This document shows positions 28,020 through 34,366 of a stretch of 36,211 nt of DNA, piece by piece. Both the position numbers and the translations under genes were made by a program. Origin of the DNA: Acidimicrobiales bacterium (GTDB lineage: Bacteria; Actinomycetota; Acidimicrobiia; Acidimicrobiales; Aldehydirespiratoraceae); the NCBI GenBank assembly GCA_029263235.1, contig JAJCXW010000092.1:1-36211 (forward strand), in the 5' to 3' direction. The notes beneath the pieces are model-generated. The model was not told the origin of the DNA and made no database searches. It saw only the letters and a program-made list of their open reading frames with translations. The first letter of the stretch is position 1. Each line of letters begins with the position of its first letter.

Positions 28020-29099
28020 CTAATCGCGTCGAACCACGAGGATCGCCGTGTCGTCGTCGATGACGCCTCCGGCGAAGTCCTTGGCGGCGTCGAGCAGGGT
28101 CTTGCACAAGACCCCGGGTGCGGCGTTGAGGTCGCGTTCGGCGGTCTTGATGATGCGTTCCTCGCCGAACAGCTGGGTGTCTTCTCGGGCTTCGGCCAGA
28201 CCGTCGGTGTACATCACGACCGTGTCGCCGCTCGCCATTGGGATCTCACGTGAGAAGAACTGAGCTTTGGGGTCGAGCATCAGCAACGGACCGGTCGACC
28301 GCAACGGCATCACGCCCTCCTCCTTGAACAGAAATGCCGCCGGATGGCCAGCCGAGGCATATCTGAGAGTGCCGGCTTCGGTGTCGTAGACGATCACGAC
28401 GGCGGAGATGAACTCTTCGTCGCGGTCGCCGGCTGAGAGCTGTGCGTTGAGTTCCTCGAAGGCCTGGGCCGGATCGCGGAACTGACGGAGGAATACCCTG
28501 AGCAGGTACTTCGCCTGAAATGCGGTGATCGACGACTCAATACCATGACCTGCCACGTCGCCAATGACCGCGGCAACTCGGTGTGGTCCCACCCTGTGAA
28601 CGTCGAAGAAGTCGCCAGCCATCAGGCCCGAGCCGGCCTCGTAGACGCGGCCGATCTCGAAGCCACTGAAATCAGGTAGTTCCTCGGGGGCGAGTCGGGC
28701 CGCCCAGGCCTTCGGAGCCAGCTGTTCCTGCTCGAGGGCTTCGTCGGCTCGACGCTCGATGTCGTATCGGTTTCGGGCCATTCGAGCCTCGCGGCCCGAC
28801 AACCTCGACCACCACAGCGACGCCACGGCCGGGGCGGCGAGAATGGCCAGCACCATCGACATGTCGGGAGCGTCGACCAGGGCGAGAGTTCCCACGGCAA
28901 TCGCCAGCAGTCCGTAGACGCCGGAGGCGTGAGCTTCCTTGCGGAACGATGCGAAAGCCACCGAATGGGCCTCGGCACCGGACCCGGCATCGGTCTCGAT
29001 CAGCCTCACGACACGAAGCCGTAGACGAGCCGATCTGGCATACACAACCGACGAAGCCAGGCTAATTGCGGCGAGAACGCCGAGAACGATGGTGGTCAC
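28020..29099 (-). CDS. Membrane PP2C/SpoIIE-type (RsbU-like) serine phosphatase
   Basis: LMAGDFFDV, AAVIGDVAGHGIESS, YASAGHPAAFL, VMYTDGLAEAR, DDDTAILVVRR; N-terminal hydrophobic segments. Confidence 0.9.
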   Translation of the reverse strand: MTTIVLGVLAAISLASSVVYARSARLRLRVVRLIETDAGSGAEAHSVAFASFRKEAHASGVYGLLAIAVGTLALVDAPDMSMVLAILAAPAVASLWWSRLSGREARMARNRYDIERRADEALEQEQLAPKAWAARLAPEELPDFSGFEIGRVYEAGSGLMAGDFFDVHRVGPHRVAAVIGDVAGHGIESSITAFQAKYLLRVFLRQFRDPAQAFEELNAQLSAGDRDEEFISAVVIVYDTEAGTLRYASAGHPAAFLFKEEGVMPLRSTGPLLMLDPKAQFFSREIPMASGDTVVMYTDGLAEAREDTQLFGEERIIKTAERDLNAAPGVLCKTLLDAAKDFAGGVIDDDTAILVVRRD

Positions 29100-29153: not shown

Positions 29154-30458
29154 TCAATCGCTTCGCTTTCGTACACGTATCTTTATCGGCGTGGTTCCGA
29201 GGTCGAATGACTCCCGCAAATAGCGTTCGAGATACCGCAAATAGGTCCGTGGAACCTCCCGATTGGCAAACATCGTGAAGGTCGGCGGGTCGGTCGCACC
29301 CTGTGTGGCGTAGAGCACCCGAGCACCGTGGGGAGCGGGCTGCGCAGACTGGGCGGCACGAATGGCCTTGTTGACATCGCGGGTGGGAATCCTGGTTCGG
29401 TAGTCGCCGATGGCTTCCTGAAGCGACGGCCAGAGACGATCGACGCCCTTGCCGGTCAGCGCGCTGATGCGAAGAACCGGGGCACCACCCAGGAACGCCA
29501 GCTTGCGTTCCACATCGTCGGCGATCTTCTCTCGGCTCTCGGTGTTGAGGAGCTCCCACTTGTTGAGCAGGATCACCACCGGGCAGCCAGCGCCGTCGAC
29601 CCGTTCGGCCAATCTCTGGTCCTGATGGGTGATTCCCAAGGTCGAATCGATGATCAGCAGCGCCACATCCGACTTGTCGACAGCGTTGAGGGCCCGCACC
29701 AGTGAGTAGTACTCGGTGTCGGCGTCGATTCTCGACTTTCGCCGCATCCCGGCGGTGTCGACGAAACGAATCGGGCCCGTGTCGGTCTCGACGACGGTGT
29801 CGATGGCGTCTCGTGTGGTGCCGGGCATGTCGTGCACGACCGCCCTCTCCTCACCGATCAGCCGATTGAACAGAGTGGATTTACCGACGTTGGGTCGCCC
29901 CACCAACGAGACCGAGAACATGCGCTCATCATCGGAATCGTCGAAACTGGGGTCGGCGGCACTCTCGGGAAGGTGCGAGATCACCTCATCGAGCAGATCA
30001 CCGGTGCCCAATCCGTGAAGCGAGCTCACCGGATAGGGATCTCCCAGCCCGAGGCCCATGAGATCCCAGATCCCCGCCTCGTGGCTTTTGTCGTCGCACT
30101 TGTTGGCGACCACGATCACAGGAGTATCGAGACGCCGCAACATCATGGCCACCCGCTCATCGTCGGGGGTGGCCCCCACGATGGCATCGACCACCAGCAA
30201 CACCACATCGGCCTCGTTGATCGCAGTCTCGGCCTGTCGGCTCACCTTCTCGTCGAGATCGTCGCCGCCGACCATCCAGCCCCCGGTATCGATCAGAGTG
30301 AACCGGTAGCCGAGCCACTCACCCTCGACCTGCTTGCGATCACGGGTGACACCGGGGCGCTCCTCGACGATCGCCTCGCGTCGGCCGATGATGCGGTTGA
30401 CCAGCGTCGACTTGCCGACATTGGGTCGGCCCACCACGGCAACAATCGGCAGATTCAT
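29154..30458 (-). CDS. der: Ribosome biogenesis GTPase Der (EngA)
   Basis: Two G-domains: VVGRPNVGKSTLVNRIIG and LVGRPNVGKSTLFNRLIG; C-terminal KH-like domain. Confidence 0.97.
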   Translation of the reverse strand: MNLPIVAVVGRPNVGKSTLVNRIIGRREAIVEERPGVTRDRKQVEGEWLGYRFTLIDTGGWMVGGDDLDEKVSRQAETAINEADVVLLVVDAIVGATPDDERVAMMLRRLDTPVIVVANKCDDKSHEAGIWDLMGLGLGDPYPVSSLHGLGTGDLLDEVISHLPESAADPSFDDSDDERMFSVSLVGRPNVGKSTLFNRLIGEERAVVHDMPGTTRDAIDTVVETDTGPIRFVDTAGMRRKSRIDADTEYYSLVRALNAVDKSDVALLIIDSTLGITHQDQRLAERVDGAGCPVVILLNKWELLNTESREKIADDVERKLAFLGGAPVLRISALTGKGVDRLWPSLQEAIGDYRTRIPTRDVNKAIRAAQSAQPAPHGARVLYATQGATDPPTFTMFANREVPRTYLRYLERYLRESFDLGTTPIKIRVRKRSD

Positions 30459-31858
30459 GATGCCTCCAAGGCGGTACGCAACGCGGTGCCATCGGTGGCG
30501 ATGACCTCGACCCGACGGGGAAGGTCATCAACAGTGAGGCCATCGAGAAAGGTACCTCGACTCAGGCACACATCGGGCAGAAGATAGCGGTGGTCTTCGG
30601 GCTGATTTCTCAGCACGGTGGTCAGGTCGGCGCCGACCATCAACCCGCTGACCCCGATATTGCCGCCGAAGTAGTCGTTGGGCACCGGCAACACCCGCAC
30701 ATCGGTGCGATCCAGGCGATCGACAAGAGGTTTGATGACTCCAGCCCCGAGGGTGCCGGTGAGAATTGCCACGGGCGCATCCGATCTCGGTCTCACCGCC
30801 AGGGCCACGGGAGTGGACGAGGACTCTCCGGCAGACACCAGACCGCCCGGCGAATCGACCCTGGGTGCGCGGTAGCCGTCGGCGGGAGCGCCGTCGACCC
30901 ACGCGAAGAAACCGCTACGGGTTCCGGTCGGCTGCGCGACCGCGCCGGAGAACTCCAGTTCGAGAGTGCGGGCCATCCCGATTCCGTCCTCGTGCATCGG
31001 GAATCCTTCATACGAATCGGCGTCGGGGAACGGCATATCAGCCATCAGATAGTACTCGTCGGCCGCGAACACCATCCTTCTGCCGAGAGCCTCCAGGAAC
31101 GTGCGCTGCCAGAGGTCGATGGTCTCGACCACCCTCACCGCCTCGTCCCGGGTGTGGGGCCGCATGCGTTCCTGAGTGTTGAACCCGGAAACCCCCAGCG
31201 GCACGACGCACACCGATGCCAATTCGGGGAATCGCTCGAGAACCCCGGCCAGCGTGTCGTCCAACACGTCGGCATCGTTGAGCCCCGGACATACGACCAC
31301 CTGCCCGTGGACCTCGATGCCATAGTCGAGAAGTGCTCTGAGCCAGCGCAGCGACACCGCTCCCCGGCGGTTGCGGAGAATGTCGGCTCGAATCTCGGGG
31401 TCGGTGGCATGAATCGACACATGTAACGGCGACAACCGTTCGGTGATGACCCGTTCAAGGTCGAGCTCGGTGAATCGGGTCAGTGTGGTGAAATTTCCGT
31501 AGAGGAACGACAGCCGGTAGTCGTCGTCCTTGAGGTAGAGCGAACGTCGCATCCCTTTCGGGAGCTGATGTATGAAGCAGAACTCGCAGTGGTTGTCGCA
31601 GGTCTGCACCCGATCGAACACCGCGGCATTAACCTCCACACCCAGCGGCTCGCCGTCGCCCTTCACCACGTTGACCGTGCGGATCTCATCGTCGCGGGCG
31701 ACCACCAACTCGACCTCCGACGCATCGGTGAGCAACTGCCAGCGGATCACATCACGGGGAATCTCACCGCCGATGGTCTGGATCTCGTCGCCCGCGGCAA
31801 GTCCGAAACGCTGCGCCGGCGAGCCGGGCTCGACCGACACGACGAGGGGGAGAGACAC
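30455..31858 (-). CDS. DUF512 / PDZ-containing radical SAM FeS oxidoreductase
   Basis: PDZ VSVEPGSPAQRFGLAAGDEIQTIGG; CDNHCEFCFIHQLPKGMRRSLYLKDDDYRLSFLYGNFTTLTRF; start revised to GTG 31858; ATGA overlap with der. Confidence 0.92.
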   Translation of the reverse strand: MSLPLVVSVEPGSPAQRFGLAAGDEIQTIGGEIPRDVIRWQLLTDASEVELVVARDDEIRTVNVVKGDGEPLGVEVNAAVFDRVQTCDNHCEFCFIHQLPKGMRRSLYLKDDDYRLSFLYGNFTTLTRFTELDLERVITERLSPLHVSIHATDPEIRADILRNRRGAVSLRWLRALLDYGIEVHGQVVVCPGLNDADVLDDTLAGVLERFPELASVCVVPLGVSGFNTQERMRPHTRDEAVRVVETIDLWQRTFLEALGRRMVFAADEYYLMADMPFPDADSYEGFPMHEDGIGMARTLELEFSGAVAQPTGTRSGFFAWVDGAPADGYRAPRVDSPGGLVSAGESSSTPVALAVRPRSDAPVAILTGTLGAGVIKPLVDRLDRTDVRVLPVPNDYFGGNIGVSGLMVGADLTTVLRNQPEDHRYLLPDVCLSRGTFLDGLTVDDLPRRVEVIATDGTALRTALEAS

Positions 31859-31956
31859 CCGAGAAGGATACCGCCGGGGCATGTTCCACGACTCTGCGCC
31901 ACGCCGAGTTGGGCCTGTGGGTGCGTTTCATGCCTTTTCATGTATCCTCGCGCGTC

Positions 31957-31980
31957 ATGTTGCACGAGACGAACTCATGA
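31957..31980 (+). CDS. Possible 7-codon leader ORF (MLHETNS)
   Basis: ATG TTG CAC GAG ACG AAC TCA TGA; stop overlaps pseudokinase ATG (ATGA); TATCCT 8 nt upstream. Confidence 0.4.
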   Translation: MLHETNS

Positions 31981-33053
31981 GTGGAGTAACCCTCGAACGG
32001 CTCGAGGGTGCTCTGGTGGCCGCCAAGCAGTCGTCCGCTGCCGATCGCCTGCGGTCCGAAGCCGACACTCTCGGCCGGCTGCGGCACCCGGGAGTTGTCG
32101 AGCTGATCTCCTTCGAGCCCGGCCTCCCCGCCACCCTTCGAACGGTCTGGGCCGGTACCGACACCTGGGATCGTCAGCCCCCCGCCACCCGCGACACCAT
32201 TCCCGTTGCGTTGGCCGCCATCGCCACGACCCTCGCCGACATTCACGACGTGGGCCTCTGCCACGGAGCGCTCACACCCGACCATGTGATCGTCGGGCCC
32301 GGCGGCCGACCCGTACTGTGCGGGCTGGGCGACGCTGCGCCGGTCGACCCGGAGTCTCAACGCAACGACGTTTCGGGCCTGCTCGGCATCGTCGAGCACA
32401 TTCAACACACTGCCGACGACGACTGTCGGTCCGACCTACAGATGCTGGCCGATCACCTACGAGAGCCGAGCGCCGATCTCCGCACGTTCGTTCACTTGGT
32501 TGGAGAGACAACGGTCGAGCCCGACGTAGGCCAGGCCCGATGGAGACCGCCCACGAGAGCCGTCGCCGTTTCTGTCGCGGCCGTCCTCACGATCGTCACC
32601 GCCGCGATCGCACTGACCCGACCCAACCACCCGACGGCCGATCCAATAGCCGCTGCAGTCTCGGCAAGTCCCCTGCCAACACGACCACCCTCGCCCACCG
32701 TTGCCATCGTCGAGCCCTCCACTCCATCGACAACTCGGGCTGCTCGGGGCGACCCATCCGAGGCCTTCATCGACCACGACGGGCGTCGCTACAGCCTCGG
32801 CACCACCGGCGACATCACCGTGCTCGGCGACTGGGATTGCGACGGCGAGCCCACGCCGGCCTTGCTCCAGCCCTCCACCGGCCAGGTCGCGGTGTTCACA
32901 TCCTGGCCAGCCCCCGGCGGATCACTCGACCCGCAAGTGCTCCAGCCGGTGCTCGACGCGACCAGCCTTGCGGTCGAACGGGTCGGAGAATGCGACCTGC
33001 TGCGGGCCCACGGCAGCTACGGCTCAACCCTCATCGAAACGGAGAACCCATGA
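31977..33053 (+). CDS. Membrane pseudokinase with extracellular VCBS/FG-GAP-like segment
   Basis: Kinase-like GLCHGALTPDHVIVGPGGRPVLCGLGDAA with degenerate HRD/DFG; TM AVAVSVAAVLTIVTAAIAL; ITVLGDWDCDGEPTPALLQPSTGQVAVF. Confidence 0.75.
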   Translation: MSGVTLERLEGALVAAKQSSAADRLRSEADTLGRLRHPGVVELISFEPGLPATLRTVWAGTDTWDRQPPATRDTIPVALAAIATTLADIHDVGLCHGALTPDHVIVGPGGRPVLCGLGDAAPVDPESQRNDVSGLLGIVEHIQHTADDDCRSDLQMLADHLREPSADLRTFVHLVGETTVEPDVGQARWRPPTRAVAVSVAAVLTIVTAAIALTRPNHPTADPIAAAVSASPLPTRPPSPTVAIVEPSTPSTTRAARGDPSEAFIDHDGRRYSLGTTGDITVLGDWDCDGEPTPALLQPSTGQVAVFTSWPAPGGSLDPQVLQPVLDATSLAVERVGECDLLRAHGSYGSTLIETENP

Positions 33054-33736
33054 CCGGTCGCCCCAGCCTTATCAAATCGCTGCTCACCGCGGCGTTGTCC
33101 GCAGGCGTCGGGTGGTGGCTTTTGCGTCTTCCTCTCGGCTCCGCCACACCGGCAGATCTCCAGCCCGGTTCCCTGCTCGAGTGGTCGAGATCGATCGACA
33201 CCCTCACCGCGATATTCACGGTCGTGCGATCGGTTGGGGTGTTCTGTTCGGCCTACATCACGCTGGTCGCGCTCGTGGGCGCTCTGGTAGCGCTCTCCGG
33301 TAATGCCAGGAGCATCACGAGGGTCTGGGGCGCCGTCGCCACCAGAGGACTACGAAGCACCCTCGCCGTGGGTGTGATCACCGCCTGGGCCGTCTCCCCC
33401 GCAGTCGTCGCCGCCACCGACTCCACTCCGCCCCCGATCGTCCTGATCGACGTCGGACCGGCCACTCAACTTGAGCCAGGCCCCGTCCAGGTCACATCGG
33501 AATCATCGGTCGAATCTCCCCCGATCACCGAGAGCATCACCGACGACGTCTGGACCGTCGAGCCGGGCGATCACCTCTGGGGAATCTCACGATCGGTGCT
33601 GCGCCGCGACGGCACCGAACCCACGACGCGAGCCGTCAATTCTTATTGGCGTCGCCTCATCACCGAGAACCACAACGTGGTCGGCAACAACCCCGATCTC
33701 ATCCATCCGGGACAGGTCTTGCAGCTGCCCGGCTGA
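33050..33736 (+). CDS. Membrane protein with C-terminal LysM domain
   Basis: TM segments; VWTVEPGDHLWGISRSVL...ENHNVVGNNPDLIHPGQVLQLPG; ATGA overlap with upstream gene. Confidence 0.85.
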   Translation: MTGRPSLIKSLLTAALSAGVGWWLLRLPLGSATPADLQPGSLLEWSRSIDTLTAIFTVVRSVGVFCSAYITLVALVGALVALSGNARSITRVWGAVATRGLRSTLAVGVITAWAVSPAVVAATDSTPPPIVLIDVGPATQLEPGPVQVTSESSVESPPITESITDDVWTVEPGDHLWGISRSVLRRDGTEPTTRAVNSYWRRLITENHNVVGNNPDLIHPGQVLQLPG

Positions 33737-33758: not shown

Positions 33759-34292
33759 TCAGACCTGGATGCTGAGCCCGAGATCTTCGAGGCGCGGGGC
33801 TGCACCATCGACACCGGTGCCGAGGATCGCGGCGAGGGCCTGCAGATCGTTGGACCGGATGGTGAGAACCCTGCCGTTGAAGTCCTGGCGCTGTACCTGG
33901 ATCATGGTGAGGTAGCGATTGAGCATCTCGGCCTCGGGGCCGGAGAGCTGCTCGAGACGGGTGAGATCGATCGTGATGGTGCGGGACTGGCGGGTCCCGA
34001 TCCGGTCGGTGAGATCGATGACCGGTTCGGCCGTACTCACCCCGAAGCTGGGACCCTCATCGTGGGGAAGGAGCTGGTCGACCGGCACGTTGTAGAACCG
34101 CGACAGCCGCTGCAGGCGGGGCACCGAAATGGCCCTCTCGCCTCGCTCGTATGCGCCGAGAACCGATGCCTTGAATTCCTGGGTCGAGGAGGCCTCAACC
34201 TCCTGAAGCGACAGACGCTTCTGGCGGCGAATCGCGCGCAGGCGTTCGCCCACGCGTTTGCTGTATTCCTGAGAGAAACCCGAATCTGGCAT
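33759..34292 (-). CDS. bldD: BldD-like XRE-family regulator with c-di-GMP-binding-type C-terminal domain
   Basis: YSKRVGERLRAIRRQKRLSLQEVE...YERGERAISVPRLQRLSRFYNVPVDQLLP; RQDFNGRVLTIRSND. Confidence 0.85.
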   Translation of the reverse strand: MPDSGFSQEYSKRVGERLRAIRRQKRLSLQEVEASSTQEFKASVLGAYERGERAISVPRLQRLSRFYNVPVDQLLPHDEGPSFGVSTAEPVIDLTDRIGTRQSRTITIDLTRLEQLSGPEAEMLNRYLTMIQVQRQDFNGRVLTIRSNDLQALAAILGTGVDGAAPRLEDLGLSIQV

Positions 34293-34366
34293 CTTGCACA
34301 CTTCCCCGGAGAGCTTGGTCACGTCGCGCACATCCAGCGATCGGTCGGTGACGCTAAGTGAGCGAC

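Follow-up and report, generated by a model that had tools for sequence, protein, structure and literature searches.

The gene at positions 31977 to 33053 (+) of the window, meaning the whole 36,211-nt stretch analyzed here (contig JAJCXW010000092.1 of assembly GCA_029263235.1, our genome G000), encodes a 358-amino-acid protein with an N-terminal kinase-like domain, one transmembrane (TM) helix, and an extracytoplasmic domain. The name PsK is used for it here. The best explanation of the evidence is that PsK, a membrane protein with a catalytically dead kinase fold, serves together with the adjacent LysM protein as an accessory module of the Tad/Flp (type IVc) pilus of Acidimicrobiales, with a job in anchoring or positioning. 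Taken as one statement, this explanation is given a probability of roughly 0.55. The start of the gene is conserved in orthologues and is secure, since in several of them a stop codon precedes it by only a few codons.

A kinase fold without catalytic residues

Is PsK a kinase homologue at all? When the protein is searched alone, Pfam returns only sub-threshold APH and Kdo matches, and the best match in the PDB is a kinase at 4.6e-4. The name of the MAD6 defence kinase also surfaced below threshold in Pfam/NCBIfam searches with PsK alone and was rejected, its curated score being far from reached. A profile built from 32 relatives matches a MAP-kinase-kinase-like protein (1.4e-14), PknB (2.5e-10), and StkP (2.9e-10) in the PDB. 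Pfam Pkinase is found at E<=0.1 in 23 of the 32 profile members, and a single named relative, L135, scores above the curated Pkinase cut-off. An AlphaFold model of PsK, built from seven sequences, places the elements in the order beta2-beta3-alphaC-beta4-beta5, alphaE, two short strands, alphaF, two more helices, and the TM helix, with pLDDT values of roughly 65 to 80 in the N-lobe, 75 to 95 in the C-lobe, and 22 to 48 in the linker. Foldseek searches with this model retrieve kinases at 5e-7. PsK thus has both the detectable homology and the fold that define a Hanks-type kinase, and the resemblance to Ser/Thr kinases that the original prediction read from the N terminus is borne out by the profile and structure comparisons it had called for. 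It was also right that the kinase-like part is short. The first element of PsK is beta2, with neither beta1 nor the glycine-rich loop present, and in the model its C-lobe is shortened and has neither activation segment nor alphaG.

The motifs quoted in that prediction (HGA, GLG, the TM segment, and GDWDCDG) are all present in the translation, and the catalytic losses it described extend far beyond this one protein. When relatives are aligned to the family profile (a few of the rows come from other pseudokinase-like groups), the HRD position, occupied in PsK by HGA at residues 96 to 98 (32262-32270, +), lacks the catalytic Asp in 59 of 63. At the DFG position, where PsK has GLG at residues 116 to 118 (32322-32330, +), the metal-binding Asp is absent from all 63 and is replaced by Gly, Ser, Ala, Asn, or Pro. 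No compensating Asp is seen in the aligned relatives, and the position of the catalytic-loop Asn, H103 in PsK (32283-32285, +), is His in 55 of 63. A compensating Asp or Lys elsewhere had been named as grounds for giving up the pseudokinase assignment. Two residues not mentioned at the time are retained, namely, the beta3 Lys K17 in a VAVK-like AAK (32025-32027, +; Lys in 49 of 55 relatives) and the alphaC Glu E28 (32058-32060, +; Glu in 55 of 58). Residues 27 to 47 of PsK read SEADTLGRLRHPGVVELISFE. The combination of HRD Asp, DFG Asp, and glycine loop that marks an active Ser/Thr kinase is found in neither PsK nor its relatives.

Could such a gene simply be decaying? The same degenerate pattern recurs in about 63 homologues, which is more than chance. 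Compared with the nearest orthologue (83% identical), PsK has an overall dN/dS of 0.25, with values of 0.06 for the N-lobe and 0.43 for the linker; the overall value and that of the N-lobe rule out a gene in decay. Judged from these comparisons, the kinase-like domain is maintained and noncatalytic, and PsK is almost certainly a pseudokinase. The well-conserved Lys and Glu, which lie in the N-lobe, the most constrained part of the protein, could also be read to mean that PsK binds ATP through K17 and E28 and acts as a weak or unconventional transferase (AMPylation, for example), in which case it would not strictly be a pseudokinase. With no glycine loop, no activation segment, and the metal-binding Asp gone from every relative aligned, that reading is very improbable.

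The outer domain and the LysM partner

Beyond the kinase-like part, a single TM helix is evident in both the AlphaFold model and the sequence at residues 195 to 212 (32559-32612, +). The N terminus would be inside and the C terminus outside, because the cytoplasmic flank is Arg rich (RWRPPTR) and the positive-inside rule applies. What follows is an extracytoplasmic beta domain of about 100 residues (258 to 358; 32748-33050, +), modelled with nine strands at a pLDDT of 86, so the predicted succession of TM helix and outer segment holds. The further suggestion that this segment resembles VCBS/FG-GAP repeats fared less evenly. The loop GDWDCDG at residues 284 to 290 (32826-32846, +) aligns as a DxDxDG motif of FG-GAP/VCBS-like type, and Pfam FG-GAP_3 is found at 4.5e-6 in 1 of 32 family members and below threshold in another relative. 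No such match is obtained with PsK itself, and the beta domain searched alone against PDB folds gives no significant match, the best being weak at E>0.1. A stand-alone Ca-binding FG-GAP propeller was considered and dropped, as the fold search lends it no support. Two cysteines of the domain, C288 (conserved in 63 of 73 aligned sequences) and C339 (58 of 58), probably form a disulfide.

The gene for the LysM partner lies at 33050-33736 (+) and encodes N-terminal TM segments, a linker, and a C-terminal LysM domain that scores above its Pfam cut-off (6e-5; 23.4 against 20.9 bits). The protein here is about 230 amino acids long. The stop of PsK and the start of the LysM gene share an ATGA. Most orthologues have the same 4-nt overlap, and by this arrangement the two genes are translationally coupled. 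The cooccurrence check proposed with the original prediction bears the pairing out, with the LysM partner present in 60 of the 84 PsK-bearing genomes in a sample of 200 from Acidimicrobiales (Fisher 1e-21, kinship ignored). The linker contains a short motif, LIDVGP in the window (33443-33460, +), whose family form, LxD[LIV]G[PS], is present in 20 of 27 partners and totals 30 copies, where shuffled sequences lead one to expect 0.19 (relatedness among the 27 not removed). From this enrichment it is a candidate binding motif. In genome G006 (L032) LxDLGP is repeated several times within the linker, and in families further removed the LysM linkers have [VI][ML]xR[LV]PD in its place.

Placement beside the Tad pilus genes

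What ties this pair to a pilus? Across the same 200 genomes, PsK is found in 84, the LysM partner in 69, and the cognate TadA in 79; PsK occurs together with the LysM partner in 60 and with TadA in 61 (Fisher 2e-16 for TadA and PsK and 9e-19 for TadA and LysM, with no phylogeny correction). In 34 of the 61 genomes with both genes, drawn from 12 families, PsK lies no more than 15 kb from tadA, where 0.5 would be expected, and in 23 of those 34 the two are on the same strand with 3.3 to 3.9 kb between them. All seven tad loci read have the order cpaB-tadZ-tadA-tadB-tadC-flp-tadE-tadE-tadG-PsK-LysM. In these loci, TadA (T2SSE), TadC (T2SSF), CpaB (RcpC), and a TadG-like gene are confirmed by Pfam and TadE falls just under the cut-off, while position and hallmark features, not Pfam, are the basis for naming TadZ, TadB, Flp, and the second TadE. 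Smaller arrangements exist as well: four genomes belonging to one family (L144-L147) have just TadZ-PsK, and G224 has TadZ-PsK-LysM. One of the former (G185, L144:7584-10034) has a single reading frame that passes from TadZ into PsK over a masked stretch; a natural fusion and a run-on could both explain it, and a fusion is not claimed. No secretin was detected in 60 of 61 relatives; the only match (G034:C100:6567-7040) is probably contamination.

The window's own family is arranged differently. At E<=1e-3, PsK homologues are found in 52 of the 61 relatives, some of them generic kinases. In this family the PsK-LysM pair sits between DUF512-Der and BldD-RsmE-DnaJ, whereas in other families tad genes take the place of the DUF512-Der block. 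On one side, across a 94-bp gap, the divergent gene at 30455-31882 (-) encodes a PDZ and radical SAM/DUF512 protein, assigned by Pfam and by synteny within the family; it resembles TIGR03279 while scoring well under that model's cut-off. On the other, the convergent conserved neighbor at 33759-34316 (-), whose start is uncertain, is a BldD-like regulator (Pfam BldD-like_C, 1e-18; synteny). A SpoIIE-type protein phosphatase gene (28020-29099, -) is also conserved near Der-DUF512-PsK in this family. The tad genes of G000 are on a separate contig (C161, L138). In the complete or long-contig genomes G011, G023, G024, and G029 the pair is 57 to 78 kb from tadA, and elsewhere it is further away or on another contig. 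The cooccurrence with Tad that is seen order-wide holds in the window's family too, with the pair detached from the locus. Within the family, the pair is intact in 23 of 24 genomes with the cognate TadA and in 3 of 13 without it (Fisher 8e-6, from a hand tally with no phylogeny correction). The presence of TadZ follows that of TadA. Among the genomes without the cognate TadA, those of genus g6 retain PsK but no LysM gene, PsK is broken in G025, and both genes are missing from G028 and G034. In G005, which also lacks it, an in-frame deletion fuses the PsK N-lobe to the LysM C terminus in a 134-amino-acid chimera (L054:4383-4787 and L104:1492-1896); this is either a natural deletion or an assembly error.

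Might the tad genes be no more than an accidental neighbor? The pair could be hitchhiking, caught between two conserved blocks, tad and BldD-RsmE-DnaJ, both of which flank it in several families, and after tad loss PsK remains beside the other block. Against this stand a same-strand operon with near-constant spacing in seven families, the persistence of PsK with TadZ in L144-L147 with no BldD in the stretch read, and the loss of the LysM partner along with Tad, and hitchhiking is judged improbable. PsK is likely to be part of the Tad module.

Its role cannot be confined to Tad, however, because PsK is kept in genus g6, and in 16 of the 200 genomes, where both LysM and Tad are missing; from genus g6 it is clear that PsK can survive the loss of Tad. 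This persistence fits another possibility, that PsK relays the status of the cell wall independently of pili. The LysM/beta side would read peptidoglycan, and the pseudokinase would recruit an FHA protein or a wall enzyme in the way that MviN recruits FhaA, with the tad adjacency being secondary. Its housekeeping neighborhood (DUF512, Der, BldD, RsmE, DnaJ) is consistent with such a role, as are the two PASTA kinases of G000, which could phosphorylate PsK, and the MviN-like pseudokinases with a discoidin-like domain that are its neighbors in the tree. A role limited to sensing the wall would not lead one to expect that the LysM partner tracks Tad or that one family keeps only TadZ and PsK, and this relay is considered unlikely, if less so than hitchhiking.

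The original prediction had offered a noncatalytic transmembrane scaffold or sensor. The kinase fold, the fixed Asp losses, the one TM helix, purifying selection, and the cooccurrence with LysM all argue for that description, and because of the link to the tad operon, "scaffold of a pilus machine" is more specific than "sensor."

Kinship and proposed role

Where did PsK come from? In the tree, the PsK proteins group in a single clade with 58 members and a support of 0.90 (the deep branches are weak). Active receptor kinases with the same general architecture and a GDWDCDG-type extracytoplasmic domain also exist (L050, L051, L044, L052, and L113), differing from PsK in that their HRD and DFG Asp residues are intact. 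Since these active kinases share the extracytoplasmic domain and PsK is a single clade, the sequences suggest that PsK descended from an active receptor kinase, of whose ancestor the five are probable living relatives. In G057 (L044/L121:1508-3175) the place beside tadZ/tadA, held in other genomes by the pseudokinase, is taken by a kinase that looks active (HCDVKPSN, SDFG) and has an extracytoplasmic domain of this type.

Among working systems, the nearest counterpart is EssB/YukC. This TM pseudokinase forms a core scaffold of T7SSb and interacts with other components from its own operon (PMC9600267). Like PsK, it has an N-terminal cytoplasmic pseudokinase domain with a degraded glycine loop and activation loop, one TM helix, an extracytoplasmic domain, and a place in the operon of a membrane machine (PMC9600267, PMC12599244); the orientation on the PsK side is taken from charge. 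The two differ in that the outer part of YukC is helical and that of PsK beta, in that PsK keeps the VAIK Lys whereas the YukC motif is partly missing, and in machine and partner, which for PsK are the Tad pilus and LysM. The closest actinobacterial pseudokinase is MviN (ActPs3), which recruits FhaA in Mycobacterium and shares with PsK degraded catalytic motifs, a deleted activation loop, and a link to the envelope (PMC12599244). PsK also has the C-terminal TM helix of ActPs3, the deletion being seen in its AlphaFold model. The canonical motifs of ActPs3 are reported to be completely degraded (PMC12599244), whereas PsK keeps the beta3 Lys and the alphaC Glu. MviN additionally carries a carbohydrate-binding domain and a flippase, and the tree puts MviN-like proteins in a clade of their own. 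A search for MviN-type pseudokinases among the relatives gave matches dominated by active kinases. Other orders of the class have a different pseudokinase (L107, L110, L112, L114, L115), with HGAI or similar, GGFG/GAFG, and a discoidin-like C-terminal domain resembling the C-terminal half of MviN.

The PASTA kinases PknB and StkP resemble PsK in having a kinase domain, one TM helix, and an extracytoplasmic domain, and they match its profile, but they are active and bear PASTA repeats; a kinase search of G000 recovered two PASTA kinases and did not pick up PsK at 1e-3. The LysM partner has its own counterparts, the long LysM proteins of actinobacterial tad loci, which we take to be BTAD-type. 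These also combine TM segments with LysM beside TadE-like genes (L122, L139), but they are around 1,000 amino acids long and have a long C-terminal part. To the extent that the family definitions could be checked, the PsK family matches none of the bacterial pseudokinase families of a 2025 review (PMC12599244), and no published description of a pseudokinase tied to Acidimicrobiales, the Tad pilus, or Flp was found in the open-access literature.

How might such a protein serve a pilus? For Caulobacter, modelling has placed CpaE, the homologue of TadZ, around the CpaF motor, and the secretin there is joined to peptidoglycan by a periplasmic protein. PsK probably serves as a structural scaffold and not as an enzyme, and a tentative, testable proposal, held at somewhat less than even odds, is that it bridges TadZ and the LysM/peptidoglycan side. 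The steps would be as follows. (i) PsK binds TadZ on the cytoplasmic side, and its single TM helix carries the link across the membrane. (ii) Outside, the disulfide-bearing beta domain binds the LysM protein, perhaps by way of the linker motif LxDLGP, and the partner in turn grips peptidoglycan with its LysM domain. (iii) The pair thereby holds the pilus platform under the wall and guides the fibre through it in a cell without a secretin. Both bindings, as well as the anchoring or positioning job itself, are what we infer, and the Tad-side role of PsK could be regulatory instead of structural. More speculative still, and doubtful as it stands, is the notion that PsK-LysM, with TadZ as its cytoplasmic dock, replaces, in a secretin-less actinobacterial lineage, the subcomplex for alignment and wall anchoring that is made of PilM-PilN-PilO or secretin-bound proteins in other type IV pili.

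Reviewers regard two points as open, namely, what holds the type IVc platform together and whether and how pilus machines are anchored in the thick wall of monoderms, which have no outer membrane (PMC6916266). The operon seen across the order, in which tad genes are joined by a membrane pseudokinase and a LysM protein, supplies named, testable candidates. If the proposal is true, PsK would be the second case, after EssB/YukC, of a pseudokinase that acts as part of an envelope machine.
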